The position numbers were made by a program, and so were the translations under genes. Positions 8,818 through 57,433 of a DNA stretch of 64,000 nt are shown piece after piece. How positions within the stretch are numbered: position 1 is the first letter of the stretch; each line of letters begins with the position of its first letter. This stretch comes from Ignavibacteriales bacterium (GTDB taxonomy: Bacteria > Bacteroidota > Ignavibacteria > Ignavibacteriales > Melioribacteraceae): the NCBI GenBank assembly GCA_026390795.1, contig JAPLFG010000003.1, forward strand, positions 806,001 through 870,000, in the 5' to 3' direction. Below the pieces are notes generated by a model. The model did not search any database. It was not told the DNA's origin and worked only from the letters and a program-made list of their open reading frames with translations.

Positions 8818-9630
8818 TTATTGAATTCTAATTACTTTTTTCTCTTTTCGTAAGAGAAGATAAATTCCTAAGATAACTAGAGGAATACTAAGAAGTTGGC
8901 CCATGTTAAGGAACATTCCGGCTTCGAATGGCGATTGATCTTCTTTAAAAAATTCGACAAAAAATCTAAATGAAAAAATCAGAACAAGAAATAACCCGAA
9001 AAGTAATCCCGGCTTAAATTTTCCTTCCTTATGGAAATAATACCAAAACAGAAAGAAAAAGATGAATAGATATGCGATTGATTCATAGAGTTGTGCTGGA
9101 TGACGAGGTATCATGTCAACTGAAGTAAATACAAATCCCCAAGTGGAATTTGTTGGTTTACCAATTATTTCCGAGTTAAAAAGATTACCCATTCGTATAA
9201 AGAATCCAGCCAAGGCAACCGTAATTACTACGCGGTCGAAAATCCATAGATAAGTCATTTCTTTTCTTTTTCTAACGTAAAAATAAATGGCTATCATAAT
9301 TCCAATCGCCGCGCCGTGACTTGCTAGTCCGCCTTTCCAAATTTGCAGAATTTCTTCCGGATGTTTAAGATAATATGATGGGTTATAGAAGAAACAATGC
9401 CCAATTCGGGCACCAAGTACAGTTCCAAGAATCATTATCCAAACCAAGTCATTTAGATCCTGCTCACTTTTCTTCTCTTTATTGAATATGACGAGCATTA
9501 TTTGATAGCCGACCAGGAAAGACATTGCGAAAAAAAGACCGTACCATCTAATAGTGATGGGGCCAATTGAAAAAATGTCGGGGTTTACATCCCAATAGAT
9601 CACTAAAAACCCTAAATGAATTTTCAACAA
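8818..9630 (-). CDS. lgt: Prolipoprotein diacylglyceryl transferase
   Basis: This 270-residue inner-membrane enzyme transfers diacylglyceryl from phosphatidylglycerol to the lipobox cysteine of prelipoproteins. About seven membrane segments are visible. Family motifs are GARIGHCFFYN, GGLASHGAAIG, the Lgt signature RMGNLFNSEIIGKPT, and HPAQLYES. The Arg and Glu of the signature are present, so the enzyme should be active. The annotated ATG gives a short N-terminal extension before the first helix; a later start is possible. Confidence 0.96.
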   Translation of the reverse strand: MLKIHLGFLVIYWDVNPDIFSIGPITIRWYGLFFAMSFLVGYQIMLVIFNKEKKSEQDLNDLVWIMILGTVLGARIGHCFFYNPSYYLKHPEEILQIWKGGLASHGAAIGIMIAIYFYVRKRKEMTYLWIFDRVVITVALAGFFIRMGNLFNSEIIGKPTNSTWGFVFTSVDMIPRHPAQLYESIAYLFIFFFLFWYYFHKEGKFKPGLLFGLFLVLIFSFRFFVEFFKEDQSPFEAGMFLNMGQLLSIPLVILGIYLLLRKEKKVIRIQ

Positions 9631-9882: not shown

Positions 9883-11130
9883 TTGTTATGGCCTTTATCG
9901 TTGAGATTTATCTTAAAATTAACAAAGTGTTATATGAGTCTTAACGATCTAATCAAGTCATTATTCGACCCCGCTAACCCAATCTACCTTTCTATCATCA
10001 TTGTAGTAGCTTTTTTTAGTTTGATATTTTTCGTTTATAAATATTTGATCAATCCTTCAATTTCTAAATACAAAATTGAAAAAGAGAATATTGAACTCCA
10101 GTCCGCAAAATTAATGGCATTATTTGCCCAATTAGATCCTGACCCGTTAATAAGAATCGATTCGACAGGAACAATTATTGAGACAAATAAAGCTGCACAG
10201 AAGGTCTTATCAACTTTTGAATTGAAGGGGAAAAAAGTAAATGATGTTCTTCCTTTCGTTAATTTCGTTCCCGGTTCCAATTTAAATGAAAACCAGAGTA
10301 ATCTTTTAACATATACAATCGATAATAGAATTTTCTCAGTACTTTATAGAAGTGAACCGAGTTTGGATATTACCCATATCTATTTCCACGATATAACGGA
10401 TATTAAAACCTATCAGGAAAAATTAATAGAGTCGCAAAATAAATTGCGCGATTTATCGGACCATCTTCAAAATTTAATTGAGAAAGAAAGACAGAGAATT
10501 GCCAGCGGACTTCATGATGGGATTGGACAAAGCTTATCAATGTTAAGAATAAAATTACTTAGACTGAGCGAAAAAGATACCAGCCCGGCACAGAGAATGA
10601 ACTACCAAAGTATTGTAGATACTTTGGAGGATACGATTCTTGAATTGAAAACTATTTCTTACGATTTAAAGCCAAAGATGTTAGAGGAAATGGGACTTGG
10701 ATTTGCTTTGAAATACCTCGTTGACAGAGTCGTTACAGAAACCGGCTTAGTTGCCGAAGTGAATGTTGTCGGAGGAGAATATCGTTTAGAAAGCAAATTA
10801 GAAATTTACCTGTACAGAATTGTTCAAGAATCTATAACAAACATTTTGAAATACTCGAAAGCAACAAATTTCAGCATTCAATTGGTTATCTCAATGCAAT
10901 CTTTAAGATTGATCATATCGGATAACGGCAAAGGATTTGATGTTGAAGAAGTTAACTCTAGAAAAAATACTTTACACGGTCTGGGATTAATTAATATGAG
11001 AGAAAGGGTTGAATCATATCAAGGTCAGTTGAAAATTGAATCATCCCCCGAAAGCGGAACATTGATTGTAATTGAAATTCCTATGAGGAACGACTTAATA
11101 TGGCAGAATCAAAACCAATACGCATTATAA
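9883..11130 (+). CDS. Membrane PAS histidine kinase, NarL/HisKA_3 type
   Basis: This sensor kinase pairs with the response regulator that follows. The order is: a short N-terminus, one membrane helix (about residues 34-55), a linker, a PAS domain (about 70-185), a HisKA_3 dimerisation box with the phospho-acceptor His in ERQRIASGLHDGIGQ, and a C-terminal ATPase with DNGKGFD and GLGLINMRER. The TTG at 9883 is preceded by AGGA at 5 bases. An ATG at 9934 (MSLNDLIKSLF) is the alternative and matches the second kinase in this window better. The PAS-helix head is homologous to the kinase at 53224. The ligand is unknown. Confidence 0.93.
   Translation: MLWPLSLRFILKLTKCYMSLNDLIKSLFDPANPIYLSIIIVVAFFSLIFFVYKYLINPSISKYKIEKENIELQSAKLMALFAQLDPDPLIRIDSTGTIIETNKAAQKVLSTFELKGKKVNDVLPFVNFVPGSNLNENQSNLLTYTIDNRIFSVLYRSEPSLDITHIYFHDITDIKTYQEKLIESQNKLRDLSDHLQNLIEKERQRIASGLHDGIGQSLSMLRIKLLRLSEKDTSPAQRMNYQSIVDTLEDTILELKTISYDLKPKMLEEMGLGFALKYLVDRVVTETGLVAEVNVVGGEYRLESKLEIYLYRIVQESITNILKYSKATNFSIQLVISMQSLRLIISDNGKGFDVEEVNSRKNTLHGLGLINMRERVESYQGQLKIESSPESGTLIVIEIPMRNDLIWQNQNQYAL
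9888..9944 (+). CDS. Possible 18-codon upstream ORF
   Basis: ATG at 9888 opens a frame of 18 codons (MAFIVEIYLKINKVLYES) that ends in TAA at 9942-9944. It lies in a different frame from the kinase and overlaps the kinase's alternative ATG at 9934. AGGA sits 10 bases upstream, which is long. It could couple translation to the kinase or be chance. There is no coding evidence beyond position. Confidence 0.2.
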   Translation: MAFIVEIYLKINKVLYES

Positions 11131-11780
11131 TAGCAGATGATCATAAACTCTTTCGCAGCGGAATAATATCGCTGTTAGAGGATGTTGAAGAAATTCTTAT
11201 TGTTTCCGAAGTGGAAAACGGTAACGACCTAATTGAGAAATATTCAGAGGTTAATCCCGATGTGATACTTGTTGATATCTCCATGCCCGGAATAAACGGA
11301 ATTGAAGCTATCAAAACAATTAAGAAAAAGCATGAAGATGTTAAAGCGCTTATGCTGTCAATGTATGACAGCGATGAATATGTTTTTTACGCATTAAAGA
11401 GTGGCGCAAAAGGTTTGTTGAGTAAGAATACCATGAAGGGAGAGTTAATTCATGCGATTAAGATTGTTTACTCAAACAAACGGTACTTTGGCGTTACACT
11501 TAACGAAGAAAAAATAATAGAACTGGAAAAGAAATATAGAATGCTTGTTTCTACCGATCTGGAAAGTTTTAATCAACTCAACATGAAAGACAGAAATATT
11601 TTGGAATATATAAGCAAAGGAATGACAAGCCAGGAGATTGCCGACCAATTCAAGGTGAGCAAGAAAACTATTGATTACTACCGCTCGCGTATAATGCAGC
11701 GTCTTCAAATTAAATCGCTCCCCGAATTGATTTCATATGCGGTTCGTTACTCTATGATAAACAAATTGTTTGAAGAATAA
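11100..11780 (+). CDS. NarL/LuxR-type response regulator
   Basis: The 226-residue protein has an N-terminal receiver domain (acidic pair in IIADDHKLFRSGI, phospho-Asp in VILVDISMPG, Lys in LLSKNTMKG) and a C-terminal LuxR helix-turn-helix (MTSQEIADQFKVSKKTIDYY). It overlaps the kinase gene by 31 bases and is certainly its partner. Phosphorylation should make it bind DNA. The three membrane-protein genes start 11 bases downstream in the same direction, so they are probably part of the same transcript and may be its input or output. Confidence 0.95.
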   Translation: MAESKPIRIIIADDHKLFRSGIISLLEDVEEILIVSEVENGNDLIEKYSEVNPDVILVDISMPGINGIEAIKTIKKKHEDVKALMLSMYDSDEYVFYALKSGAKGLLSKNTMKGELIHAIKIVYSNKRYFGVTLNEEKIIELEKKYRMLVSTDLESFNQLNMKDRNILEYISKGMTSQEIADQFKVSKKTIDYYRSRIMQRLQIKSLPELISYAVRYSMINKLFEE

Positions 11781-11791
11781 GAAAACCGCTT

Positions 11792-12361
11792 ATGACAATC
11801 TATTTTGTAATTGTAAGCCTCTCAATGTTTTTCTGGATTTTCCCCGCTGTTAAACAATTTAAAACAAATTTGTTTTTGTACTTTCTAATTTATGCGATGA
11901 TGGACCCTATCACAATAATAATAATTTCGAACATTAAGCATACCAGAATAGAACTTCTTTTTACTTTTTTACTCATGCTTTCTGTCTTATGGTCATTTAA
12001 GTACAAAAAGTCGATCAGAATTTTGATTGCAGTGGTTTTATCATTAGTACTATATTCATACTTTTCTGACAGAATTTTCTATCTAACATTAACGATCTCG
12101 ATTCATACAATTATTGTTTATTTCTTCATCAAAAGAACTTTTTCGTTTACTGCAAATTGTGGTAAAGTAAATATCTTTCATCTTTTTCTTTTGTTAGAAG
12201 AAATTTCGATTATTTTAAAAATATCAGCTTCATTAATATCAGTAGAAACTGGGCCAGTCTATTCCTATACTACAACTGCATTCGAAATTTTGATTGCTAT
12301 ATTTTTTACTCTATACAGAGAAGACAATCCAAAACTGCATATTGATTTACGAAGCGCCTGA
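11792..12361 (+). CDS. Multi-pass membrane protein of an unrecognised family, copy 1
   Basis: This 189-residue protein has six to seven strongly hydrophobic segments and very short loops. I recognise no known family. It shares with its neighbours a start pattern FWIFPAVKQFKT followed by LYFLIYAMMDP, a central SVLWSFKYKKSIRIL, and an end FEILIAIFFTLYREDN. It follows the response regulator by 11 bases. Three tandem copies at 11792-13523 and a fourth at 52701 lie next to histidine kinases with the same sensory head. A role as a membrane sensor or as a target of the kinase system is inferred only from this linkage. Confidence 0.85.
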   Translation: MTIYFVIVSLSMFFWIFPAVKQFKTNLFLYFLIYAMMDPITIIIISNIKHTRIELLFTFLLMLSVLWSFKYKKSIRILIAVVLSLVLYSYFSDRIFYLTLTISIHTIIVYFFIKRTFSFTANCGKVNIFHLFLLLEEISIILKISASLISVETGPVYSYTTTAFEILIAIFFTLYREDNPKLHIDLRSA

Positions 12362-12369
12362 GAACACTC

Positions 12370-12936
12370 ATGAAAATTCAATATATACTTTTATATCTCT
12401 CAATGTTTTTCTGGATTTTCCCGGCTGTAAGACAATATAAAACGGAATTGTTCTGGTATTTTCTTGTTTTTGCATTCATGGATCCACTGAATGCAATAGT
12501 TATGCATTTTACCCATATTTATCTGTATCCAATTTTTAATTTTTTACTTATGCTTTCTGTTTTATGGCCTTTCAAGAATAAAAAGTCGATAAGAATTTTA
12601 ACTGCTGCGATTTTATTACTTTTATTAGTTTCGTTTACTGAAGTGAAGTTTTTCTCGATTTATCTTCATCTATTGATTCATTTAATTATTTCTTATTTCT
12701 TCATAAAAAGAACGTTCATTTTCTCTGCTAACAGCGGCAAAGTAAATTTCTTTCAGCTGTTTCTTTTGTTAGAGGAGATTTCAATAATTTTGAAATTAGT
12801 GGCATTATTAATATCACTCAAAACCGGTACAATTTATTTCTTCGCTACAGGGACTTTCGAAATTTTGATTGCTATCTTCTTTACTATATACAAAGAAGAC
12901 AATACAAAACTGCAAATTGATTTACGGAACGCTTGA
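12370..12936 (+). CDS. Multi-pass membrane protein of an unrecognised family, copy 2
   Basis: This 188-residue protein is a close paralogue of the preceding gene, with 8 bases between them. The conserved elements are FWIFPAVRQYKTELFWYF, the acidic-Pro pair MDP, SVLWPFKNKKSIRIL, FSANSGKVNFFQLFLLLEE, and the tail FFTIYKEDN. The nucleotide sequences of the copies are visibly similar, so the duplication is fairly recent. The most variable part is the segment after MDP and the loops around residues 90-100. Confidence 0.85.
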   Translation: MKIQYILLYLSMFFWIFPAVRQYKTELFWYFLVFAFMDPLNAIVMHFTHIYLYPIFNFLLMLSVLWPFKNKKSIRILTAAILLLLLVSFTEVKFFSIYLHLLIHLIISYFFIKRTFIFSANSGKVNFFQLFLLLEEISIILKLVALLISLKTGTIYFFATGTFEILIAIFFTIYKEDNTKLQIDLRNA

Positions 12937-12944
12937 GAAGACTC

Positions 12945-13523
12945 ATGAAAATTAACAATATCGTTATTTATCTTTCGATCTTTTTCTGGATATTCCCAGC
13001 AATAAAGCAATATAAAACGAAATTGTTCTGGTATTTCTTTGTATTTGCATTGACAGATCCAGTAGTATTAATAATTCGTCCACTAATTATGTTTACATCT
13101 AATAATCCGGTATACATCCTTTCAAATTTTTTACTAATGCTTTCTGTTTTATGGCCTTTCAAAAATAAAAAGTCTATCAGAATTTTGATTGTCGTAGTTT
13201 TATCATTATGCCTCTTCTCATTTTTCTCTGATCATCGTTTTTATTTTTCTTTAATGATATTGGGTCACATAATAATTACATATTTCTTTATCAAAAGAAC
13301 TTTTATGTTTATAGCAAACAGCGGCAAAGTAAATGTTTTTCATCTTTTTCTTTTGTTAGAAGAAATTTCAATTATTTTAAAAACGTCGGCAGTATTAATT
13401 TCTCTTCAAACTGGTGCAATTTATTTCGTCGCTACTGGGGCATTCGAAATTTTGATTGCTATTTTCTTTACTTTATACAGAGAAGACAATTCAAAACTGC
13501 ATATTGATTTACGGAACGCTTGA
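12945..13523 (+). CDS. Multi-pass membrane protein of an unrecognised family, copy 3
   Basis: This is the third tandem copy, 192 residues from the ATG at 12945. The frame is open from a TTG at 12933, but the ATG lines up with the start of copy 2 (both CTCATGAAAATT). Shared elements are FWIFPAIKQYKTKLFWYF, SVLWPFKNKKSIRIL, IANSGKVNVFHLFLLLEE and FFTLYREDN. After MDP-equivalent TDP there is a longer, distinct loop than in copy 2. It ends 14 bases before the convergent ccmB-like gene, with no clear terminator between. Confidence 0.85.
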   Translation: MKINNIVIYLSIFFWIFPAIKQYKTKLFWYFFVFALTDPVVLIIRPLIMFTSNNPVYILSNFLLMLSVLWPFKNKKSIRILIVVVLSLCLFSFFSDHRFYFSLMILGHIIITYFFIKRTFMFIANSGKVNVFHLFLLLEEISIILKTSAVLISLQTGAIYFVATGAFEILIAIFFTLYREDNSKLHIDLRNA

Positions 13524-13537
13524 TTGTAAGGATTATT

Positions 13538-14197
13538 CTATTCTTTCCAGATAAACTCGAATAAAAGGTAAGAAGCCGTCCCCATTATTACATCGTAACA
13601 GATCAAGACTAGGATTTCCACCAGCGACCCGCTGACTGAATTTCCATCCATGGCGAATTTTGTTAATTCAAGCAGAGTTAAAATAAGAGGCAAAAGAATT
13701 GGAAATGAAAGTACCGGGTAAAGAGTTCCCTTGGAACTTGCTTTGGAAATTATTGCCGCTATAATAGTAGATGAAATGGCGATGCCGATATTTCCAAACA
13801 GAAATGCAATAGCAAAGAGTGAAATATTTTTTATGATAAATGATGTGAAGAGAATTGAAAAAAGAAATGTGATGACAAAATTCATCAAGAAGACTAATAA
13901 GAGATTAAAAATAAGTTTACCGGAAAATATTGTTGAAGGAGAAGCGAGAAGATGGAGCGTCATTGATGTTCCCCGCTCTTCTTCCGAGACAAACGCACGG
14001 GAAAGACCGGACATTGCAGAGAAAAATATCACAACCCACAACAAACCGCCTGTTAAATATTCTGTAATCTTTTCATTACCGATTGAAAACATTATAACAC
14101 TGATTGTAACAAGAATAAACATAGCGAGAGCATTAATTGCATAACGTGTACGCAGTTCCGATTGCCAATCTTTTTTGAATAGTGCGAATGCTTTCAT
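13538..14197 (-). CDS. ccmB: CcmB-like ABC transporter permease
   Basis: The 219-residue protein has six membrane segments and matches the CcmB family in length and pattern (FSAMSGLSRAFVSEEERGTS, LHLLASPSTIFSGKL). CcmB is the membrane part of the haem-handling ABC transporter of cytochrome c maturation system I. It overlaps the ATPase gene by 4 bases. No other ccm genes are in the window and the operon instead encodes secreted proteins, so a different substrate cannot be excluded. Confidence 0.85.
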   Translation of the reverse strand: MKAFALFKKDWQSELRTRYAINALAMFILVTISVIMFSIGNEKITEYLTGGLLWVVIFFSAMSGLSRAFVSEEERGTSMTLHLLASPSTIFSGKLIFNLLLVFLMNFVITFLFSILFTSFIIKNISLFAIAFLFGNIGIAISSTIIAAIISKASSKGTLYPVLSFPILLPLILTLLELTKFAMDGNSVSGSLVEILVLICYDVIMGTASYLLFEFIWKE

Positions 14198-14838
14198 TTG
14201 CCCGTCTGCTTCTTAAATTTTTCCAGGTCAATAACTTCAGTGCATAGTTCAAGATCTGAATCTTCGTTTGATGCAATTACAATTAGATTCTTTTTTGATT
14301 CTTCCTTAATAATCTTATATACAATTTCTTTACCGGAATTATCAAGGTTTGATGTGGGTTCATCTAAAATTATTAACTGCGGCTCATGTAAAAGTGCAAA
14401 AATAAATTTTAATCTCTGCTTCATTCCGGATGAATACCCGCGCACTAAATCGTTTCTTCTTTCAAAAAGGTTTAGTGCACCAAAAAAATAATCGGATCGC
14501 TCTTTGTTGAATTTTATTCCGCGAATATTAGCCGAGTAAATCAAGTTTTCCTCTGCGGTAAACTCATCATATAGGAAAAGATAAGGCGATACAAAGCCAA
14601 GAAAATTGTGAAGATCTTCCGGCTCAATAATTTTTTCACCGTATTTATGAACTACTTTACCCCGGGTTGACGAGATCAAATCGGCAATTATTTTAACAAG
14701 TGTCGACTTCCCAGATCCGTTCGGACCTGAAATTCCGTAAACATTTCGAGATGAAAAAGAAAAATTGATTCCGTCGAAGATCAATCTTCTTCCGAAGAAT
14801 TTGATAAGATTATTTAGCTCAACTGTATAATCAATCAT
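14194..14838 (-). CDS. ccmA: CcmA-like ABC transporter ATPase
   Basis: The 214-residue ATPase has Walker A (GPNGSGKSTLV, about residue 38), the signature YSSGMKQRLK and Walker B LIILDEPTSNLD. The size matches CcmA. It energises the permease encoded immediately downstream. It overlaps the HExxH protease gene by 8 bases and the permease by 4 bases. The assignment to cytochrome c maturation rests on the paired CcmB-like permease. Confidence 0.85.
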   Translation of the reverse strand: MIDYTVELNNLIKFFGRRLIFDGINFSFSSRNVYGISGPNGSGKSTLVKIIADLISSTRGKVVHKYGEKIIEPEDLHNFLGFVSPYLFLYDEFTAEENLIYSANIRGIKFNKERSDYFFGALNLFERRNDLVRGYSSGMKQRLKFIFALLHEPQLIILDEPTSNLDNSGKEIVYKIIKEESKKNLIVIASNEDSDLELCTEVIDLEKFKKQTGK

Positions 14839-47124: not shown

Positions 47125-49614
47125 ATGACACTTCTTAAAGCCCGCAATTTGAACGAGTTAAAATCAGAAGAATTAAAATGGACTTGCGATACCGATGTAT
47201 TTGATTTTGAGAATACAAAAAATGTTAAACCGATCGAGGGAATAGTAGGACAGGAACGCGCGTTGAAAGCCTTACGGCTCGGTGTTGAATTGAAAAGCCC
47301 AGGCTACAATATTTTTATTACCGGTCTTTCAGGCACGGGTAAATTCACTGCAATAAAACAGATGCTGGAATCAATAACACCGGATTGTTCTAATCTTTAT
47401 GATTACGCATATGTAAATAATTTTAAAGATGAAGACAGACCAATGCTGCTGCAGTTTCCAGCCGGACAGGCGAACAAATTCAAAAAAGATTTATCGCGCT
47501 CAATTAAATTTTTACAAGAAAAAATTCCGCAGTTGCTCTCCGCCGAGCCATTTGCGAAACAGAAGAAACAAATATTCTCTGAATTCGGCAAAATACAACA
47601 GAGGATGATGACGGAGTTCGAAGAAAAACTTAAAAAAGATAAATTCACTCTCGGTCAAGTTAAAGTGGGTGAACTTGCCCGTCCCGAAATCTTAGCTCTG
47701 GTTGATGAACAGCCCGTTTTTGTTCAACAGCTCGATGAACTAATTCACACGGAAAAAATCACAAAAGAAAAAGCAGAAGAGATTGTTACAAAATATGCTT
47801 CTTATCAGGATGAACTTCAGAGAGTTTTCAGAGAAAGTTTAAAACTCACACAGGACTTCCAAGAAAGAGTAGCAAAACTTGAGGGTGAGTTTGTTAATGA
47901 ATTTATAGCACTCACACTTGAGGAATTGAAGAAGAAATATAAAATTCATTCCGTTAAGGATTATTTAGACCAGGTTCACGAAAGTATTCTTATTAATCTG
48001 GATGTATTTAAAGGACAGAAACCGGCTCGCGAGGAAGCCGACGGCGGAGTTATAATTGATTATCTGAAAGAGTACGAGCTCAATATCATACTCGATAATT
48101 CTCGTACAAAAAAATGTCCGGTAATTGTTGAAACATCGCCAACATATAATAACTTATTCGGAACAATTGAAAAGTATAGTGACGGAAAAGGCGGCTGGTA
48201 CGCAGACTTCACAAAAATAAAAGCCGGTTCCTTACTTCGTGCGAACGGCGGATATATAATTATCAATGCTATGGACGCTTTTGGAGAACCGGGCGTTTGG
48301 AAAACTCTCAAACGCGTTTTACTATTTGGACAATTAGAAATCCAAGACGTTGCCAATCTTTATCAACTATCACCCAGCATATTAAAACCGGAACCGATTG
48401 ACGTTGACACAAAAGTAATATTGATTGGAAACAGTTATATCTATTCAATGCTCTCTTCGTACGAAGATGACTTTAATAAAATTTTTAAGGTTAAAGCCGA
48501 TTTTGATTATGAGATGAAACGTTCGGAATCTACTATGACCGAATACGCGATGGTCATTAAGAAATTAATTCAGATGGAAAAACTCTTAGAGTTCGATAAA
48601 TCTGCAATAGCAAAAATTATTGAATATGGCGCTCGTTATGCAGGTGAGAAAAATAAACTGACTACTCGTTTTGCATACATCGCGGATCTAGTACGCGAAG
48701 CTTGTTTTTGGGCGCGCGACAACAAACAAAAAATGGTATCAAGTTTTCATGTTGATGAAGCATTCAATTCCTCAAAAGAACGGCACGGGCTTTATGAATC
48801 CAAACTTTCTGAAATGATTAATGATGGAACAATACTCATAGATACAGATGGAATGCGTGTGGGAACAATCAATGGACTCGCTGTTTACGAAAGCGGAAAA
48901 TTTGCATTTGGAAAACCAACACGAATTACTGCGTCTGTTTCACTTGGTACCGGAAATATTATAAATGTTGAACGGGAATCCGGATTAAGCGGAAACACTC
49001 ACAACAAAGGTGTGTTAATAATTTCCGGCTACTTCAGAGAAAATTTCGGTACACGCATTCCTCTTTCATTTACGGCAAGTTTGGTTTTTGAACAAGGATA
49101 TGGAATGATTGACGGAGACAGCGCATCAATTACAGAAATCTGCGCTCTTCTTTCCGCCCTTTCCAATATTCCGCTCAAGCAATCTTTTGCAATTACGGGA
49201 TCTGTAAATCAAAAAGGAGAAATTCAACCGATCGGTGGTGTGAATGAAAAGGTTGAAGGATTTTTCGATGTCTGCAAATCGAAAGGATTAACCGGTAAAC
49301 AAGGCGTGGTAATTCCCGCACAGAATGTTAAAGATTTAATGCTCGATGATGAAGTGGTTGATGCGGTGAAAAAAAATAAATTCCATATCTATGCCGTAAG
49401 AAAAGTTGAAGAAGCTGTTGAAATATTAACAGGAATTCGCGCGGGCACAAAATTGAAGAATGGTAAGTATGAACCGAATACCGTCTTTGGCGAAGTTGAA
49501 AAAGAACTTACATCAATGAGAAAAAGATTACGTCCTGCCGAGAAGAAAAAAAATAATTCCAACGCAAAAGAAAACGGCGAGTCAAAATCACTCAAGAGTA
49601 AAAAGAAAAAATGA
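47125..49614 (+). CDS. Lon-related ATP-dependent protease
   Basis: The 829-residue cytoplasmic protein is of the Lon-related type (archaeal LonB-like without the usual N-domain). It has an N-terminal P-loop region (GLSGTGKFTAIK), a long helical insert with charged residues, and a C-terminal S16 protease domain with GDSASITEICALLSALS (Ser nucleophile) and GGVNEKVEGFFDVCK (Lys). The P-loop has Phe where Ser or Thr follows Lys in most family members. The last ~40 residues are very Lys-rich. The start has AGGAAATT. Its final codons overlap pyk by 4 bases. Confidence 0.92.
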   Translation: MTLLKARNLNELKSEELKWTCDTDVFDFENTKNVKPIEGIVGQERALKALRLGVELKSPGYNIFITGLSGTGKFTAIKQMLESITPDCSNLYDYAYVNNFKDEDRPMLLQFPAGQANKFKKDLSRSIKFLQEKIPQLLSAEPFAKQKKQIFSEFGKIQQRMMTEFEEKLKKDKFTLGQVKVGELARPEILALVDEQPVFVQQLDELIHTEKITKEKAEEIVTKYASYQDELQRVFRESLKLTQDFQERVAKLEGEFVNEFIALTLEELKKKYKIHSVKDYLDQVHESILINLDVFKGQKPAREEADGGVIIDYLKEYELNIILDNSRTKKCPVIVETSPTYNNLFGTIEKYSDGKGGWYADFTKIKAGSLLRANGGYIIINAMDAFGEPGVWKTLKRVLLFGQLEIQDVANLYQLSPSILKPEPIDVDTKVILIGNSYIYSMLSSYEDDFNKIFKVKADFDYEMKRSESTMTEYAMVIKKLIQMEKLLEFDKSAIAKIIEYGARYAGEKNKLTTRFAYIADLVREACFWARDNKQKMVSSFHVDEAFNSSKERHGLYESKLSEMINDGTILIDTDGMRVGTINGLAVYESGKFAFGKPTRITASVSLGTGNIINVERESGLSGNTHNKGVLIISGYFRENFGTRIPLSFTASLVFEQGYGMIDGDSASITEICALLSALSNIPLKQSFAITGSVNQKGEIQPIGGVNEKVEGFFDVCKSKGLTGKQGVVIPAQNVKDLMLDDEVVDAVKKNKFHIYAVRKVEEAVEILTGIRAGTKLKNGKYEPNTVFGEVEKELTSMRKRLRPAEKKKNNSNAKENGESKSLKSKKKK

Positions 49615-51038
49615 TAACAAAATTCGCAAAGACGAAAATACTTGCTACCATTGGACCGGCGACGGATTCAATGGAAAAATTAGAAGCATTAATAGATGCC
49701 GGATGTAACGCGTTCAGACTTAATTTTTCTCACGGTAATCTGGAATATTTCGAAAAGGTTTTTAATTCTATAAATGAATTATGCATTTCAAAATCACTTC
49801 CAATTCCTATTCTTATTGATTTACAAGGACCTAAAATTAGAATCGGTGAGTTAGAAAAACCGGAGATAGAAATATTCGACGGAAACAAAATTGAAATAAC
49901 AAATGAAAAAGTAATTGGAACGGCGCAAAAGATTTCTACTTCATATTTACCACTGCCGACGGATGCGGAAATAGGAGATAGAATTTTAATTGATGACGGT
50001 CTGATTAATTTAAAAGTTATTTCGAAAACCAAAACATCTGTAATATGCGAAGTAGTTAACGGCGGAATCTTAAAGCCCAAAAAGGGAATGAATCTTCCCG
50101 GTATGAAACTCAGTTCTCCATCCGTCACCGAACTAGATTTAGTCAATCTTGAATTCGCTTTGAAGCATCGTGTTGATTTTATTGCTCTCTCTTTCGTTAG
50201 AAACGCATCGGATATTTATGATTTGAGGAAGTGGTTAAAAGACCGCGGTTTCGATAAACCGATAATAGCAAAAATCGAAAAGCCGGAAGCAGTAACAAAT
50301 TTTGAAAGTATTCTAATTGCCGCTGACGGAATAATGGTTGCAAGGGGCGATCTTGGTGTTGAGTTAAAACCATATGATGTTCCGATTATTCAAAAAAGAA
50401 TTATTAAAAGATGTAACGAGTTAGGAAAACTTGTTATAACCGCGACTCAGATGCTTGAATCGATGGTGAGTAATCCCGTTCCGACCAGAGCCGAAGCATC
50501 CGATGTAGCGAATGCGGTTTGGGATGGAACCGATGTTGTAATGCTCAGTGCTGAAACATCCGTCGGAAAATTTCCAATGCAAGCTGTAAAATTAATGGGA
50601 GAAATAATTCTTAACGCCGAACGCGCTTACGAATTTGATAGAGAAATAAATTTTGCTCAACCCGAATTTATTGAGGCAAATCTATTCGATTCCATGAACA
50701 AAGGAATCTGTTCGATTTCCAAACAAATTAATGCAACGGCTATTGTTGCATTTACAGCTAAAGGGAATACTCCAAATAGTCTTTCGAAATTTAGACCGCA
50801 CTCAATTATTATTGCCGTGTCGGATAGTTTTGATACAATGAATAAACTCTCTTTAAAATGGGGAGTGCTCTCTTTGTATTGTGAAGATATTAGCAACAGA
50901 AACATAGCCGCTGAGATTGTCCGCAAACAAATTCTTGAAGAAAAGATTGTTGCACCTGGCGATTTAGTTATATTTACAGAAGGCGGACTTAAGATTAAAA
51001 ATGTACGTGAAAACTGGATTCGATTCGAAGTAATTTGA
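49611..51038 (+). CDS. pyk: Pyruvate kinase
   Basis: The 475-residue enzyme converts phosphoenolpyruvate and ADP to pyruvate and ATP. The catalytic motif IIAKIEKPEAVTN with MVARGDLGVEL is present, as are the N-terminal substrate site (LNFSHG) and the B domain. The C-terminal allosteric domain is present but lacks a long extension. Its ATG overlaps the Lon-related gene's stop (ATGA), so the two are cotranscribed. Pyruvate is then used by the dehydrogenase genes in this window. Confidence 0.97.
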   Translation: MITKFAKTKILATIGPATDSMEKLEALIDAGCNAFRLNFSHGNLEYFEKVFNSINELCISKSLPIPILIDLQGPKIRIGELEKPEIEIFDGNKIEITNEKVIGTAQKISTSYLPLPTDAEIGDRILIDDGLINLKVISKTKTSVICEVVNGGILKPKKGMNLPGMKLSSPSVTELDLVNLEFALKHRVDFIALSFVRNASDIYDLRKWLKDRGFDKPIIAKIEKPEAVTNFESILIAADGIMVARGDLGVELKPYDVPIIQKRIIKRCNELGKLVITATQMLESMVSNPVPTRAEASDVANAVWDGTDVVMLSAETSVGKFPMQAVKLMGEIILNAERAYEFDREINFAQPEFIEANLFDSMNKGICSISKQINATAIVAFTAKGNTPNSLSKFRPHSIIIAVSDSFDTMNKLSLKWGVLSLYCEDISNRNIAAEIVRKQILEEKIVAPGDLVIFTEGGLKIKNVRENWIRFEVI

Positions 51039-51062
51039 TGGAATTTTTTGATTGGATGTGTT

Positions 51063-52091
51063 ATGGATTTACAAACAGAAAAATATCATTCCGCACTTTG
51101 GTGGAAAGAAGCAGATAATGGAAAAATTCTTTGCACACTTTGCCCGCGTTATTGCACAATCGGTGAAGGACAAGCTGGTTTTTGTTTCATCCGCCAAAAT
51201 ATTGACGGCAAACTTTACTCAATCGGTTATGGCAAACCTACAGGATTTGCAATCGATCCGATTGAGAAGAAACCTCTTAACCATTTTCTGCCCGGTACAG
51301 AAATATTAAGTTTTGGAACTGCAGGCTGTAATCTCGGCTGCAAATTCTGTCAGAACTGGTCGATCTCTAAATCAAAATTGGATAGTGTCCGCTCACTCAC
51401 TGCATCTCCTGAAGATGTTGTAGCCCTTGCTAAAAAACACAAAGTCCCTTCAATAGCTTACACATATAATGACCCGGTAATTTTTGGCGAGTACGTTATT
51501 GATATTTCAAAACTTGCTCGTGAAGAAGGAATTAAATCAGTAATGGTAACCGCCGGTTACATTGATAAAGAAGCTCGGAAAGATGTTTATAAATATATTG
51601 ATGCCGCTAATGTTGATCTGAAAGCATTCTCAGAAAATTTTTATCACAAGTTAACTTTCTCACATCTCTCCGATGTTTTAGATACTCTAGTCTGGCTTAA
51701 AAACGAAACAAATGTATGGTTTGAAATAACCAATTTAATGATTCCCGGAGAAAACGATTCTGAAGAAGAAACTAAATTAATGTGCGAATGGATTCTAAAT
51801 AATCTCGGAGATGAAGTTCCGATTCACTTCACAGCGTTCCATCCCGATTTTAAAATGATTGAAAAAAAAAATACTCCGGCGGCAACATTATTAAACGCAA
51901 GAAAGATCGCTTCAAATATCGGGATTAAATATTGTTATGTCGGAAACATTCATGATAAGAGAGCACAAACCACGTATTGCCAAAGTTGCGGGAAAGCTCT
52001 AATTACCCGGGATTGGCACTCAATATTAACCAATAATGTGACAGAGAATAGATGCCCCTACTGTAAAGCTCAAATTCCCGGTTTTTTTTAA
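51063..52091 (+). CDS. amrS: Radical SAM protein of the AMMECR1/Memo (AmmeMemoRadiSam) type
   Basis: The 342-residue protein has the radical SAM motif CNLGCKFC, preceded by a Cys-rich N-terminus (CTLCPRYC) and followed by a C-terminal four-cysteine zinc-like motif (CQSCGKAL...CPYCKA). This is the AmrS layout. Its partners, AMMECR1- and Memo-like proteins, are not in the window. The reaction is not established. The frame is open from TTG at 51048, but the ATG at 51063 is preferred (GGATGTGTT just before). It is 24 bases after pyk. Confidence 0.87.
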   Translation: MDLQTEKYHSALWWKEADNGKILCTLCPRYCTIGEGQAGFCFIRQNIDGKLYSIGYGKPTGFAIDPIEKKPLNHFLPGTEILSFGTAGCNLGCKFCQNWSISKSKLDSVRSLTASPEDVVALAKKHKVPSIAYTYNDPVIFGEYVIDISKLAREEGIKSVMVTAGYIDKEARKDVYKYIDAANVDLKAFSENFYHKLTFSHLSDVLDTLVWLKNETNVWFEITNLMIPGENDSEEETKLMCEWILNNLGDEVPIHFTAFHPDFKMIEKKNTPAATLLNARKIASNIGIKYCYVGNIHDKRAQTTYCQSCGKALITRDWHSILTNNVTENRCPYCKAQIPGFF

Positions 52092-52185
52092 AAAATAATT
52101 TGTTGAATGGTGGTAAATCTATATATTATAAACGCTATAATTGGGTAATTATGGCGAATGTCAAAAATAACAGCCAGGAGATTGT

Positions 52186-52704
52186 ATGAAAAAATTATTA
52201 TTGTCATTTATCCCTCTTTTACTTCTATTAATACTGTTCTCTTCAGTTTCTAACGCACAAGGCAAATTAGGCGTAATTGGAGCAATGTTCGATAAAAGAG
52301 AAGCGAATATCTTATTCGGTAAAGTTATCGGTTCGCTTACAATAAGCGTAGCTGATTTGCAAGCCGCACTTGATAAAGGAAAAGATTATATCTTAATAAC
52401 TGTAAAAAATAACCAGGTTGTTATACGAAACGAAAAGAGGGACTTTTTATCCAGAGAACGTGTTGATATGGGTAGAGATGAAAAAATGTATATGTTCAGT
52501 AAAAGCATGATACGAGATTTATTAAAAGCTAAAAAAACGGGTAAGCATGGGACTTCTGAATTAGGTGCAAATACAATGAGTACTTCTGCAACTGCTTCAG
52601 ACCTTATTACGGTAGAAGTACGAGCTTCTGTAATTTCGTTATCTTATGGTGATGCAACGCTTGAAAGAGCAATGGACTGTCCACCATGGTGTCCTAACGA
52701 ATGA
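52186..52704 (+). CDS. Small exported protein of unknown function in signalling locus B
   Basis: I do not recognise a family. The 172-residue protein has a signal peptide (LLLSFIPLLLLLILFSSVSNAQ) and a soluble domain with a predicted beta region (KVIGSLTISVADLQAALDKG), a helix with FSKSMIRDLLKAKKTG, and a C-terminal pair of cysteines in MDCPPWCPNE. AGGAG lies just before the ATG. It overlaps the membrane-protein gene by 4 bases (ATGA), so it is translationally coupled. It may be a periplasmic ligand-binding or regulatory partner of the signalling locus; that is inference. Confidence 0.8.
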   Translation: MKKLLLSFIPLLLLLILFSSVSNAQGKLGVIGAMFDKREANILFGKVIGSLTISVADLQAALDKGKDYILITVKNNQVVIRNEKRDFLSRERVDMGRDEKMYMFSKSMIRDLLKAKKTGKHGTSELGANTMSTSATASDLITVEVRASVISLSYGDATLERAMDCPPWCPNE

Positions 52705-53279
52705 CGACGGTTGACGTTTCGAAAGTACTGTTTTTTACAAGTATAATTGTCTGGCTCCTACCGCCGTTTAAACAATTTAAAGGAAAGTATTTCCTTTATT
52801 TTTTAATCTTAGCATTCATGGATCCTATCAACTTATTGTTTTTTTTTGTTTTAAAATCCCCACTGCAAAGTCAAATTTCAATTTTGCTTGATTACTGTTT
52901 ACTACTTTCATTAATCGAAAAAAAATTACTTAGAAAGTATTGGATCTGGGTTCTTTTAATTACTCCGGCTTTGTTCTCACCAACCATATTACATCTTAAG
53001 GGAAATGAGATAACATTGGTCCGAATATTATTGGAAGTAGGCATTACATTGATCATTCTCAAAAATTTAATTACTAACTATGTTTCGACTGGTAGGTTAA
53101 GTTTGTTTCTTGTTGTTTTTCTCTCTTTTGAATTCACAAATATTGCAAAATTTTCAAATCTTTTATTCGGGTTTGCTGATGCCTTTGCTTTTTATATACT
53201 TACAACAATCGTCCAGATCATCTTTGGACTCTTCTTTTCAGTCTATACCGAAAGCGATAAAACCGGAGTCTCTGTTTAG
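52701..53279 (+). CDS. Multi-pass membrane protein of an unrecognised family, copy 4
   Basis: The 192-residue protein has six to seven hydrophobic segments and shares with copies 1-3 the N-terminal pattern WLLPPFKQFKGKYFLYFLI followed by AFMDPI. The middle and C-terminal parts are more diverged, but SVYTESDK at the end corresponds to the LYREDN of the others. Its ATG overlaps the upstream gene by 4 bases. The downstream kinase frame overlaps its 3' end. The same linkage to a PAS histidine kinase in the first locus supports a shared function, which is unknown. Confidence 0.82.
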   Translation: MTTVDVSKVLFFTSIIVWLLPPFKQFKGKYFLYFLILAFMDPINLLFFFVLKSPLQSQISILLDYCLLLSLIEKKLLRKYWIWVLLITPALFSPTILHLKGNEITLVRILLEVGITLIILKNLITNYVSTGRLSLFLVVFLSFEFTNIAKFSNLLFGFADAFAFYILTTIVQIIFGLFFSVYTESDKTGVSV

Positions 53280-54480
53280 TATAGAGAATCCGCTTTTGCT
53301 TTCGTTATTGATGATAATAATTGTTATGGCGGTAACGTTTATTTATTACCGCTATATAATTATACCAATGAAGAAGAAGCACCTTGAAGAAGAAAAAAAC
53401 CTAAAGCTGGAACAAGCTGAACTGATGGCTCTTTTCGCATCACTTTCCCCCGACCCGGTTTTCAGATTTGACCCGAGTGGATTAATTATACTTGCAAACA
53501 ATTCCGCACACAATATTTTACCGGGTAAGAATCTTGTGGGAGACCAAGCTCAAAAAGTACTCCCATTTGTAAACGATCACGATATAAAAGAAGTTATTTC
53601 AAATAACCTTACAATCAGCGATACTGCACTCTTAGGCGGAAGATATTTTCAATTCATTATTGAAGGTGTCTCAAAATTTCAGGTCTGCCAGGTTTACGGA
53701 CGTGATATTACCGATCTAAAAAATACCGAACGCGATCTTAAGGAAGCATTGATAAGAGCTGAAGACGCCAAACGGATGAAAGAATTTTTCCTCGCACAAA
53801 TCTCTCATGAAATTCGATCTCCTTTAAATGTTATAGTTGGCTATTCGGATTTATTAGCAGATGAATTAAAAGATGAGAAGAAGGATGAGTATACGAATAT
53901 TCTGCGTTCGATGAAGAATAACAGCAAACGTCTCTACAGAACTTTTGATCTTCTGCTTAATGTATCCCAGCTTCAAACCGGCAGGTATGATGCCCGCTTT
54001 GAATTGGTAGATCTTCATTCGCTATTGAAGACTCTTCAAAATGAATTCTTGTCGATGGCGGAAGAAAAAAATCTCTCTTTAGAATTAACCAATTCAATCA
54101 ATGAAGAAGTTTCAGTAATTGTGGATCATTACGCATTAGCTCAAATTTTTATGAATTTGTTTGATAATGCAATTAAATACACAGATAAAGGATGGATCAA
54201 AGTGAACATTTACCAGAGCGGTCCATCTGTTTGTGTTGATGTTTCAGATTCGGGGAAAGGAATATCAAAAGAATATATTGACAAGCTATTTATTCCTTTT
54301 ACTCAAGAGGAAATGGGATATACCAGACGTTACGACGGTACCGGTCTGGGTCTTTCCATGATTAAAAGCTTTATAGATATTAACAAAGCTAAAATAAAAG
54401 TAAAAAGTGAAATAAATCACGGAACAACTTTCACAGTAATCTTGAATGGAGAAAAAAGATGGGGAACACCACGGACATAA
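53224..54480 (+). CDS. Membrane PAS histidine kinase, HisKA type
   Basis: The sensor kinase has one membrane helix (LLLSLLMIIIVMAVTFIYY), a PAS domain, a HisKA box (FFLAQISHEIRSPLNVIVGY, His is the phospho-acceptor) and an ATPase with NLFDNAIKYT, DSGKGIS and GTGLGLSM. The first ~150 residues are homologous to the kinase at 9883, but the transmitter type differs. The start is uncertain. The frame is open back to 53110 and overlaps the membrane-protein gene in the +1 frame; no ATG lies close to the homologous N-terminus. TTG at 53224 is chosen by homology; ATG at 53179 is the alternative. Confidence 0.85.
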   Translation: MDSSFQSIPKAIKPESLFSIENPLLLSLLMIIIVMAVTFIYYRYIIIPMKKKHLEEEKNLKLEQAELMALFASLSPDPVFRFDPSGLIILANNSAHNILPGKNLVGDQAQKVLPFVNDHDIKEVISNNLTISDTALLGGRYFQFIIEGVSKFQVCQVYGRDITDLKNTERDLKEALIRAEDAKRMKEFFLAQISHEIRSPLNVIVGYSDLLADELKDEKKDEYTNILRSMKNNSKRLYRTFDLLLNVSQLQTGRYDARFELVDLHSLLKTLQNEFLSMAEEKNLSLELTNSINEEVSVIVDHYALAQIFMNLFDNAIKYTDKGWIKVNIYQSGPSVCVDVSDSGKGISKEYIDKLFIPFTQEEMGYTRRYDGTGLGLSMIKSFIDINKAKIKVKSEINHGTTFTVILNGEKRWGTPRT

Positions 54481-54896
54481 AACCGAAACTTCTTATTACT
54501 GAAGATGATTTCGAGAACCAAAAATTTCTTCAACTATTTCTCAAGAAATATTTCATAGTTGATATTTGTGATTCCTCTGAGTCTTTCTATGATTTAATGG
54601 GTAGAGAAAAATACGATATCATCTTGATGGATATTTCTATCAAGGGAGATAAAAACGGTCTCGACTTAACGAGAGAGATGAAGAGCAATCCGGATTACTC
54701 ACAGATTCCGGTGATTTGCTACACAGCCCATGCTTTTAATAAAGACAGAATAAATGCACTTGACGCAGGCTGTGATATTTATTTGAGCAAACCATCGGAT
54801 ATTCACACCCTCCTAAATGCACTTTTTGATTTGTTGAAATTGAGAGGTAAATACTTTTTAGGATCAAGTGCTTCTCAGAATTTTGCTACTACTTAA
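54459..54896 (+). CDS. Single-domain response regulator (CheY-like)
   Basis: The 145-residue protein is one receiver domain: acidic residues in LLITEDDFENQ, the phospho-Asp in IILMDISIKGD, the Thr/Ser region in CYTAHAF, and Lys in YLSKPSD. It has no DNA-binding output, so it acts by binding another protein or as a phosphate relay. It overlaps the kinase by 22 bases and is its partner. A strong bidirectional terminator follows. Confidence 0.93.
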   Translation: MGNTTDIKPKLLITEDDFENQKFLQLFLKKYFIVDICDSSESFYDLMGREKYDIILMDISIKGDKNGLDLTREMKSNPDYSQIPVICYTAHAFNKDRINALDAGCDIYLSKPSDIHTLLNALFDLLKLRGKYFLGSSASQNFATT

Positions 54897-54900
54897 TACA

Positions 54901-54931
54901 AAAAAACCTCCGCTTCACGCGGAGGTTTTTT
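54901..54931. terminator. Bidirectional terminator
   Basis: A GC-rich stem (CCTCCGC, loop TTCAC, GCGGAGG) is flanked by six A on the left and six T on the right, so it can terminate transcription from both directions. It serves the signalling operon and the convergent ahcY gene. Confidence 0.93.
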
Positions 54932-54953
54932 ATTTTCATCTCTACACTATTTC

Positions 54954-56273
54954 CTAGTATCTGTAATAATCAGCTTTATAAGGACCTTCAACTTTTACTC
55001 CAATATAGTTTGCCTGCTTCTCATTCAGAACATCTAACTCAACACCTATTTTATCCAAATGCAATCTTGCAACTTGTTCATCAAGATGTTTAGGAAGCAT
55101 ATAAACTTTATGCTCGTACTTATCGGAATTATTCCAGAGCTCGAGTTGAGCAAGGACTTGATTTGTAAATGAATTAGACATTACAAAAGAAGGATGACCT
55201 GTTGCACAGCCAAGGTTAACTAATCTTCCTTCGGCTAGAACAATTATATCTTTTCCATCAATTGTGTATTTATCCACCTGCGGTTTGATAGTGTCTTTTG
55301 TCTTTCCATAATTTCCATTCAACCAGGCCATATCAATTTCATTATCGAAATGACCGATATTGCAAACAACCGTTTTATCTTTCATCAACCGGAAATGTTC
55401 TTCGGTAATAATATCAACATTGCCTGTAGCGGTAACAATCAATTGTGCACGCGGGATTGCATTTTTAATTTTCTTAACCTCATAACCATCCATCGCTGCC
55501 TGCAAAGCACAGATCGGATCAATTTCAGTAACAATTACGCGCACGCCCGCACTTCTTAATGATTGAGCGGAACCTTTTCCAACATCGCCATAACCGGCAA
55601 CTACTGCAACTTTCCCAGCCATCATAAGATCGGTTGCTCTGCGGATTGCATCAACCAATGATTCACGGCAGCCATACTTGTTATCAAATTTTGATTTTGT
55701 AACCGAGTCATTAACGTTGAACGCAGGAATTGGAAGAGTTCCCTCTTTTACTCTATCGTATAAACGATGAACACCGGTTGTAGTCTCTTCAGAAATTCCT
55801 TTGATGCCGCCGACAAGTTCCGGAAATTTATCGAGAACCATATTTGTTAAATCACCGCCGTCATCTAGAATCATGTTTAATGGTTTTTTATCATCGCCAA
55901 AAAATAATGTTTGTTCTATGCACCAATCAAATTCTTCAAGACTCATTCCTTTCCAAGCAAATACCGGAACACCCGCAGCGGCAATTGCGGCAGCTGCATG
56001 ATCTTGAGTTGAAAATATATTGCAAGAAGACCACTGAACTTCAGCACCCAGTTCAATTAATGTTTCTATCAGAACTGCGGTTTGAATTGTCATATGGAGA
56101 CAGCCGGCAATTCTTGCATTTTTGAGAGGCTTTATTTTACCGTATTGTTTTCTTAACGACATTAGTCCCGGCATTTCTGCTTCTGCTAATTGAATTTCTT
56201 TTCTTCCCCATTCTGCCAGTGAAATATCTTTTACTTTATAATTTAAAGACTTCGTTTCCGCTGCTTGACTCAT
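54954..56273 (-). CDS. ahcY: Adenosylhomocysteinase
   Basis: The 439-residue enzyme hydrolyses S-adenosylhomocysteine to homocysteine and adenosine. It has the NAD-binding [20 protein letters not shown] and the catalytic [15 protein letters not shown], with [11 protein letters not shown]. The ATG at 56273 (MSQAAETK) is chosen because AAGGGAAC lies just before it; a longer frame to 56336 reaches into metK. It follows metK by 17 bases and is cotranscribed, so the pair recycles the methyl cycle. Confidence 0.97.
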
Positions 56274-56290
56274 TTTGTTCCCTTTTTTTA

Positions 56291-57433
56291 TTATAAATAT
56301 TTTTTGAACGTAGGCACAAGATCTAATTGTTCCCAAGTGAAATCTTTATCATTACGTCCAAAGTGACCGTACGCAGATGTTTTTTGATAGATTGGTCTTC
56401 GAAGTTTAAGACGCTCAATAATTCCGCGCGGTGTTAAATCAACTTCTTTTTTTATCATGTTCGCAATTTGTTTGTCGGAAATTTTTCCCGTGCCCCTTGT
56501 ATCGACAAAAATTGAAACCGGTTCTGCAACACCAATTGCATAAGCGACTTGAACAAGACATTCTTTTGCAAGACGGGCTGCAACAACATTCTTTGCAATA
56601 TGTCTGGCTGCGTATGTAGCGCTTCGATCAACTTTTGAAGGATCTTTACCGGAGAATGCGCCGCCTCCGTGTGGAGCCCATCCGCCGTAAGTATCAACAA
56701 TAATTTTTCTGCCGGTCAAACCGCTGTCACCATGAGGTCCCCCAATTTCAAATCTTCCGGTCGGATTTACAAAATATTTCGTTTTGCTGTCTAAATATTT
56801 TCCAGGTATAACTTTTTTAATAACGTGTTTAATGACATCATCTTTAATTTTTCTCTGGCTCACATCTCCGTCATGCTGAGTTGAAATAACAACAGCGTCA
56901 ACTCGTAATGGTTTATGATTATCATCGTATTCAATTGTTACTTGAGATTTAGAATCAGGTCTTAAATACGGCATCAATTTTAAATTTTTCTTACGAATAT
57001 CAGCAAGACGTTTCATAAGTTTATGCGCATATACTATTGGCATGGGCATATATTCCGGCGTTTGATCACAAGCAAATCCAAACATAATTCCTTGGTCGCC
57101 GGCGCCGCCGGTATCAACACCCATTGCAATATCCGGGGATTGAGAGTGGATCGCATTTAATATACCGCATGAATCAGCATCAAATTTATATTCGGCTTTT
57201 GTATAACCAATTTTCCGAATTGTAGTTCTAACAACTTCCTGAACGTCAACGTAAGCGTTTGTTGTAACTTCGCCGCCTACTACAACTAGTCCTGTAGTAA
57301 CAAAGGTTTCGCACGCTACACGGGCTTTAGGATCTTTGGTAAAGATTGCATCTAATACACCGTCGGAAATCGCATCGCAAACTTTATCGGGATGCCCTTC
57401 AGAAACGGATTCGGATGTAAATAGGTAAGACAT
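56291..57433 (-). CDS. metK: S-adenosylmethionine synthetase
   Basis: The 380-residue enzyme makes S-adenosylmethionine from methionine and ATP. Signatures are [17 protein letters not shown] at the N-terminus, [12 protein letters not shown] in the middle and [17 protein letters not shown]. The length is normal. It lies between the nucleotidyltransferase and ahcY genes on the same strand. I see no SAM riboswitch before it: only 18 bases separate it from the upstream gene. Confidence 0.98.

Follow-up and report, generated by a model that had tools for sequence, protein, structure and literature searches.

Many bacterial histidine kinases have no evident sensor, and the gene cassette described here shows where the input to such kinases may lie. 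BceS is described as lacking an extracytoplasmic sensor, with the separate membrane protein BceAB as the likely sensor (PMC8534201), and LiaF is presented as an accessory protein of LiaS (PMC3543457). A seven-helix input module is known from BtsS, a kinase of the LytS type in which seven helices with an external N-terminus feed the kinase; AgrC, LuxN and the 7TMR families are also named in that source (PMC10653868).

The window, i.e. the whole stretch of 64,000 nucleotides analysed here from the genome of an Ignavibacteriales bacterium, carries three membrane-protein genes arranged head to tail on the plus strand at 11792-13523. Copy 1 (11792-12361), copy 2 (12370-12936) and copy 3 (12945-13523) encode proteins of 189, 188 and 192 residues, respectively. 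The initial annotation had described three tandem proteins of ~190 residues following a kinase and its regulator; the coordinates are right, and the three paralogues are 61-68% identical in pairwise comparison. The order of the locus is a HisKA_3 kinase (9883-11130, plus strand), a LuxR-type regulator (11100-11780, plus strand) and the three seven-helix (7TM) genes. The kinase has a short N-terminus, one membrane helix and a PAS-like region with a LMALFAQLDPDP head, followed by HisKA_3 and HATPase_c domains matched in Pfam at E-values of 5e-10 and 5e-16. Its start is uncertain, the TTG at 9883 giving the longest open reading frame. In the regulator, Pfam identifies a receiver domain and a LuxR-type helix-turn-helix (HTH). 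For copy 3, the ATG at 12945 was chosen over the TTG at 12933 of the mechanical open reading frame, because a GAGAA(C/G)ACTC spacer precedes the ATG in copy 2 as well.

A fourth copy lies at 52701-53279 (plus strand) in a different arrangement. Its start overlaps by 4 bases the stop of a gene (52186-52704, plus strand) for a 172-residue protein with a signal-peptide-like N-terminus, a folded body and a C-terminal CPPWC. Downstream are a histidine kinase with the same head and with HisKA and HATPase_c domains (53224-54480, plus strand) and a receiver-only response regulator (54459-54896, plus strand). The exact start of this kinase is uncertain (the longest open reading frame begins at 53110), and its conserved reading begins before the seven-helix gene has ended. 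Outside the window, a fifth copy (G000:C3:320952-321515, minus strand) comes after a kinase gene, a regulator gene and the gene for a small protein. At both the fourth and the fifth copy, the adjacent upstream gene encodes a protein of 155-172 residues whose C-terminus is CPPWC or CPPFC followed by two or three further residues. This CPPxC protein and the topology of the seven-helix protein, with the N-terminus outside and the C-terminus inside, were missing from the initial annotation. As to the surroundings, the type-B cassette at 49611-57433 of the window is flanked on one side by genes whose translations suggest pyruvate kinase and a radical-SAM protein, and on the other by ahcY and metK of the SAM cycle, likewise named from their translations. 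Lengths of open reading frames suggest the same type-B flanks in several species of the genus.

No CPPxC gene lies within 5 kb of the three-copy locus. Across members of the genus, the number of seven-helix genes at this locus ranges from 1 to 3; the copies of the window cluster with those of two other genomes (G010 and G005), and a separate triplicate is found in G006. The tandem copies are best explained as a lineage-specific expansion of receptors in a variant locus without its own CPPxC gene, an explanation that we hold, together with the receptor role proposed below, to be probable. On the opposite strand, the three-copy cassette is flanked by lgt and by a pair of genes for a CcmB-like protein and an ABC ATPase (8818-9630 and 13538-14838, both minus). 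Flanks of similar length recur in the genus despite the varying number of seven-helix genes. A scan for promoters and terminators gave no excess over shuffled sequences and was uninformative.

The proteins had been said to belong to an unrecognised family, and no established family was matched consistently in Pfam, NCBIfam or PADLOC. None of the four window copies has a significant match in Pfam or NCBIfam. When 73 aligned members were compared with Pfam one by one, only single-member matches were obtained, the best being HTTM at 1.8e-4; NCBIfam returned three one-member matches (best 8e-4) and no consistent family, and neither PADLOC nor the PDB sequences gave anything consistent. 7TMR-DISM, HisKA_7TM, 5TMR-LYT, MASE and other Pfam sensory membrane domains are not among the 18 families matched by the 73 members (E-values up to 1, one member each). 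A relation to these domains that is too remote for Pfam remains possible. Viral contigs yielded no relative of copy 2 and plasmids none of copy 3. A full-text search of open papers in PMC, judged from titles and the beginnings of abstracts, gave no account of the seven-helix family or of a CPPxC-tailed signalling protein among the matches listed, which is weak evidence of absence.

A single-sequence search matched 41 of 57 genomes, among them that of the window itself, and the 73-member profile matched 95 of the 164 genomes of the order. From an even draw of the phylum, 31 of 395 genomes match; the two outside the order, G211 and G389, carry only proteins of ~410 residues, which were dropped as resembling a different, presumably O-antigen-ligase-like, type of polytopic membrane protein. 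Other phyla were reached by one pattern scan of genome contigs only. All 23 loci from that scan are in metagenome-assembled genomes titled Ignavibacteria, Ignavibacteriae, Ignavibacteriales, Ignavibacteriaceae, Melioribacter, Stygiobacter, Bacteroidetes or Bacteroidota. Within the data searched, and with that one scan of other phyla, the family has been seen only in Ignavibacteria and their close relatives.

Where six to seven hydrophobic segments had been counted before, an AlphaFold model based on 30 sequences from the window and the scan supports seven helices and not six (mean pLDDT 92.3, pTM 0.86). In copy 3, the modelled helices span residues 3-21, 28-48, 55-69, 75-92, 97-126, 131-152 and 154-177. 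The positive-inside rule places the N-terminus outside and the C-terminus inside, the four segments predicted to be inside having on average 2.5, 2.2, 1.3 and 3.0 lysines plus arginines, and those outside 0.2, 0.6, 0.5 and 0.2. Conservation is highest on the cytoplasmic halves of the helices (entropy 2.24 versus 2.74) and the outer loops are the most variable (3.44). A bias of this size was reached by 2 of 128 assignments of helix direction, the observed one included.

Comparison of the model with known structures gave borderline scores. Foldseek found no significant match in the PDB (best E-value 0.19, ~10% identity), and nearly all of the 50 matches listed are G-protein-coupled receptors (GPCRs), with a few rhodopsins. 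VIA-align gave the class T GPCR 7xp6 at Z 10.6 (rmsd 3.9 Å over 181 residues) and Ste2 (7ad3) at Z 9.8, and the 50 matches listed are GPCRs or designed GPCR-like folds. It should be mentioned that a Z of 10.6 is below the level advised by the tool for helical bundles. Since such scores may, by the tool's own advice, reflect merely the common arrangement of seven helices, no kinship with GPCRs is claimed. A GPCR-like packing is possible on the basis of the predicted model, for which no control fold of another bacterial seven-helix protein is at hand. Microbial rhodopsins bind retinal through a lysine in helix 7. Helix 7 of copy 3 (residues 154-177) contains no lysine, so the retinal-binding residue is absent, and the conserved K146 sits in helix 6.

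Gene neighbourhoods were compared at 60 loci together with L006 and the window, yielding 64 clusters with 81 copies including fragments; the gene-order table holds 63 of them, one having been lost to the overlap rule. Most members had been expected to sit beside kinases, and this was borne out. On the same strand and within 5 kb, a kinase is found in 56 of the 64 clusters, a regulator in 51, a CPPxC gene in 47 and all three in 38, with a random same-strand expectation for a kinase of 8.8% on the window's contig. Neither outcome named beforehand as refuting a signalling role was met with: there is no strong match to an unrelated established family, and the co-occurrence with kinases holds in other genomes. 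The profiles for kinase, regulator and CPPxC protein were built from the same loci, which are related by descent, and the linkage counts are thus not fully independent.

Among the eight clusters without a kinase, L042 and L089 are cut by a contig end on the upstream side and L090 lies near a contig start; L077 does have a regulator, L064, L080 and L083 have a CPPxC gene only, and L049 has none of these genes. In three 7TM/CPPxC pairs, both kinase and regulator are missing within 5 kb, and a further such pair is near a contig start. The CPPxC gene is absent within 5 kb in 17 of the 64 clusters, namely the three-copy locus and 16 others, two of which are cut by contig ends. Two layouts are prevalent: kinase-regulator-(CPPxC)-7TM and CPPxC-7TM-kinase-regulator. 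The window has the former with HisKA_3 and LuxR and the latter with HisKA and the receiver alone. Neighbouring CPPxC-7TM, 7TM-kinase and kinase-regulator genes for the most part overlap or abut, the median gaps being 7 bases for CPPxC-7TM (48 pairs), -20 for kinase-regulator (51 pairs) and -104 for 7TM-kinase, where starts are uncertain; from regulator to CPPxC gene the median is 85 bases. Both the 7TM and the CPPxC families occur in 91 of the 164 genomes of the order and neither in 63, only 4 having the 7TM family alone and 6 the CPPxC family alone. In G002 and G004, besides other loci, one locus has a kinase and a 7TM gene without CPPxC and another a CPPxC and a 7TM gene without kinase. These split loci suggest that the partners may act in trans. 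No residue cleanly sets apart the 7TM proteins that have a CPPxC gene linked to them.

The fourth copy's kinase had been reported to share its sensory head with the kinase of the three-copy locus. Kinases of both layouts indeed have a common head, which in 23 aligned examples consists of a short N-terminus and one membrane helix with an NP...P frame, leading through LMALFAELDPDP into PAS. For the two kinases of the window, Pfam gives HisKA_3 or HisKA together with HATPase_c and nothing else above the cut-off, PAS being below it. Judged from their sequences, the kinases of this class have no evident extracytoplasmic sensor domain. In the window's genome, the head profile has three strong matches (E-values 1e-61 to 1e-70), all beside seven-helix genes, among 74 matches to HATPase_c; the next match, at 5e-6, covers the PAS part only. 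In the 395 phylum genomes there are at least 46 head matches at an E-value of 1e-20 or better, of which 41 have a 7TM gene no more than 5 kb away; with CPPxC genes counted as well, the number is 44. Counted in reverse, 50 of the 60 7TM genes of this sample are near a head kinase, 44 near a CPPxC gene and 3 near neither, while 40 of the 49 CPPxC matches have a 7TM gene within 5 kb and 9 do not, 6 of them being near neither a 7TM gene nor a head kinase. As no more than 8 or 9 candidates were scored per genome in the searches of the phylum sample for head, 7TM and CPPxC, these counts are lower bounds.

Three loci from a different class of the phylum (L129:5026-7209, L130:3321-6726 and L131:5069-7296) combine a CPPxC gene with another multi-helix protein of ~280 residues and a kinase that matches the head over the membrane helix only (E-values 7e-10 to 7e-12 in a three-sequence search). 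Because only the helix match is kept in this class, we infer that the membrane helix is a likely docking site. An alignment of the seven-helix family with the 280-residue partner by hhalign reached a probability of 42%, and homology is not shown. No shared family of CPPxC partners beyond the 7TM proteins emerged, the 204-residue partner in G175 matching only 3 of 198 genomes, its own included.

The CPPxC protein has ~150 residues, is in most cases predicted to be exported and carries the motif at its end, C-terminal in all 44 aligned members of the profile. In a search independent of the tail, with a profile of the body alone, 80 matches were found, some genes being counted twice across two collections. 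The motif is present in 74 of these, and in 71 of the partly redundant 74 no more than 3 residues separate it from the C-terminus; exactly two cysteines follow residue 25 in 48 of the 80. Of the six body matches without the motif, L141, L142, L146, L147 and L084 are cut, masked, fused or frame-broken; L069 is complete with a different C-terminus. Separate observations concern two unusual products: L088:3880-4692 encodes a 270-residue protein of two tandem CPPxC-type domains, each ending in CPPYC, and in L142:1841-3196 some 60 initial residues of CPPxC type, signal peptide included, are continued in one frame by ~390 unrelated residues.

By a crude rule applied to 59 non-redundant CPPxC proteins, 45 have signal-like leaders, 5 were flagged for a lipobox and 9 were assigned none. 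Inspection by eye of these nine found a later leader in L046, L088 and L090, an ambiguous one in L006, which comes from the window's genome, and a broken frame in L084, leaving four proteins without signal peptide (L043:5520-5891, L045:1879-2253, L086:1742-2110 and L145:4530-4913). A Shine-Dalgarno-like stretch precedes the ATG in two of these four genes. The leaderless copies disfavour a purely periplasmic role of the CPPxC protein and are the strongest point against it. AlphaFold predicts the body with a confidence of ~95 over residues 31-80 (whole-protein mean 84.3). All 50 matches listed by VIA-align are DNA sliding clamps, the best at a borderline Z of 8.0 (rmsd 3.0 Å over 102 residues), and the best E-value in Foldseek is 0.037. 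The two halves of the body show no internal sequence repeat of the kind a clamp fold would predict (hhalign probability 2.5). Among the 44 members, Pfam and NCBIfam matches occur in at most two, and PDB sequence matches are weak, starting from an E-value of 0.006.

Ten matches with longer frames were obtained in the 395-genome draw, eight of which (263-320 residues, E-values 1e-7 to 4e-14) have a C-terminal GerE domain, i.e. a LuxR-type HTH; the remaining two are the dropped proteins of ~410 residues. These seven-helix fusions are at L132:4067-4966, L133:3973-4872, L134:3683-4477, L135:3971-4855, L136:4001-4792, L137:3625-4587 and 11755-12714, and L138:3566-4480, and no CPPxC gene was detected in the stretches fetched around them. 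As far as domain content can tell, they are membrane-bound one-component regulators. Fusion to a DNA-binding domain points to an input role for the seven-helix protein and to a C-terminus in the cytoplasm. Among eight type-B loci of the genus, mean identity is 50% for the CPPxC protein and 49% for the 7TM protein versus 72% for the kinase and 77% for the regulator, from which it follows that the input half evolves faster. Divergence of the 7TM and CPPxC proteins remains correlated once the distances of kinase and regulator are removed (partial r 0.31 over 36 loci, reached in 0 of 2000 permutations). The correlation is modest: other partial correlations are up to 0.22 (7TM-kinase) and 0.20 (CPPxC-regulator), and the permutations leave shared descent in.

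We propose that the seven-helix protein is a receptor subunit feeding a kinase of the intramembrane-sensing type, usually together with a CPPxC partner on the outer face. We regard this as probable in the absence of any data on binding, signal or phenotype. The signalling or receptor role surmised in the initial annotation is supported by the kinase linkage (56/64), by the head kinases near 7TM or CPPxC genes (44/46) and by the eight LuxR fusions, physical interaction being inferred. In the proposed mechanism, separate seven-helix proteins, N-terminus outside and C-terminus inside, would serve as receptor subunits of a two-component system. The protein would perceive a signal and, by means of its conserved cytoplasmic face, relay it to the kinase's membrane helix, a contact that is inferred and not shown. 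The kinase would then act like an intramembrane-sensing kinase with an accessory sensor, whose requirement for signalling is likewise an inference. The CPPxC protein may be a periplasmic co-sensor, or may itself be the ligand and contact the receptor with its tail; of all the proposed steps, this one is least certain. Receptors of the three-copy locus may rely on CPPxC proteins from other loci of the genome, or on a different ligand. A more specific, GPCR-style version, in which the CPPxC tail of an exported clamp-folded protein would enter an outer pocket of a GPCR-like receptor that drives the kinase by helix-helix contact, and in some relatives the LuxR domain directly, can only be offered tentatively and is somewhat unlikely as a whole.

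Other readings give the CPPxC protein a different part. Its tail could be a thiol or metal site for redox or metal sensing, with the 7TM protein merely anchoring it or relaying to the kinase. The two invariant C-terminal cysteines (C-x3-C), the 48 of 80 partly redundant matches with exactly two cysteines after residue 25, and leaderless copies that could function in the cytoplasm all agree with this. The CPPxC gene is missing, however, in 17 of 64 clusters, and no recurring metal or redox gene was noticed in the gene-order table, to which no dedicated test was applied, so that we find this reading doubtful while still worth serious attention. The same tail, 3 residues or fewer from the C-terminus in 71 of 74 partly redundant carriers, could instead be an autoinducer on a released CPPxC protein, sensed by the seven-helix protein as in quorum sensing; candidate ligand and receptor do diverge fastest (50% and 49% versus 72% and 77%) and receptor copies stand in tandem. 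Against such a release, the tail is invariant (44/44), which group-specific autoinducers are not, the body is predicted well as a domain and is no short peptide, a few of the proteins appear lipoprotein-like by eye and four have no leader. We consider it unlikely.

The remaining two readings move the seven-helix protein away from the receptor position. It might be a small transporter or enzyme under the control of the two-component system and not its input. Many kinase-regulator pairs adjoin their targets, and three 7TM/CPPxC pairs have no kinase or regulator nearby; yet the LuxR fusions, the single class of kinase head tied to the family and the tight packing of the cassette make this quite improbable. 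Finally, a membrane protein of about the size of AgrB adjoins a small cysteine-tailed protein and a kinase, as if an AgrB-like peptidase or exporter processed the CPPxC protein to a cysteine peptide sensed by the kinase. The catalytic cysteine and histidine of the AgrB peptidase are conserved. Here there is no conserved cysteine (22 of 73 members have none, and the richest column holds 11) and no invariant histidine, so that an AgrB-like peptidase was rejected; eight relatives are fused to a DNA-binding domain, and the kinase, with its single membrane helix, has no evident receptor part. Processing or export of this kind is thus left with very little credence.

If the seven-helix protein is a receptor subunit as proposed, the cassette would provide a compact bacterial model of how seven-helix receptors signal, and would assign a testable role to two families that are unnamed in the libraries searched. 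The same protein is found with two types of kinase or with a LuxR DNA-binding domain fused to it, and usually with a small Cys-tailed partner. The modelled body of this partner may resemble DNA sliding clamps in fold, with the borderline score given above, and the protein differs from them in being mostly exported, by prediction, and single-domain, in its cysteine tail and in halves without sequence match. With GPCRs and microbial rhodopsins the modelled protein has in common seven helices and the N-out/C-in topology; in contrast to them, it has only a distant resemblance in Foldseek and no helix 7 lysine in copy 3, and common ancestry is not shown. Seven helices with an external N-terminus that feed a kinase are also the design of BtsS, 7TMR-DISM, AgrC and LuxN. 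Unlike in these, the proposed receptor here stands alone or is fused to a LuxR HTH, and its 73 members show no Pfam sensory membrane domain. As with BceS/BceAB and LiaS/LiaF, a kinase anchored by membrane helix and devoid of an extracytoplasmic sensor is accompanied by a separate membrane protein as the likely sensor. The cassette differs from those of BceS and LiaS in that the seven-helix partner has no Pfam transporter match, the kinase has one membrane helix followed by PAS, and a CPPxC protein is usually added.
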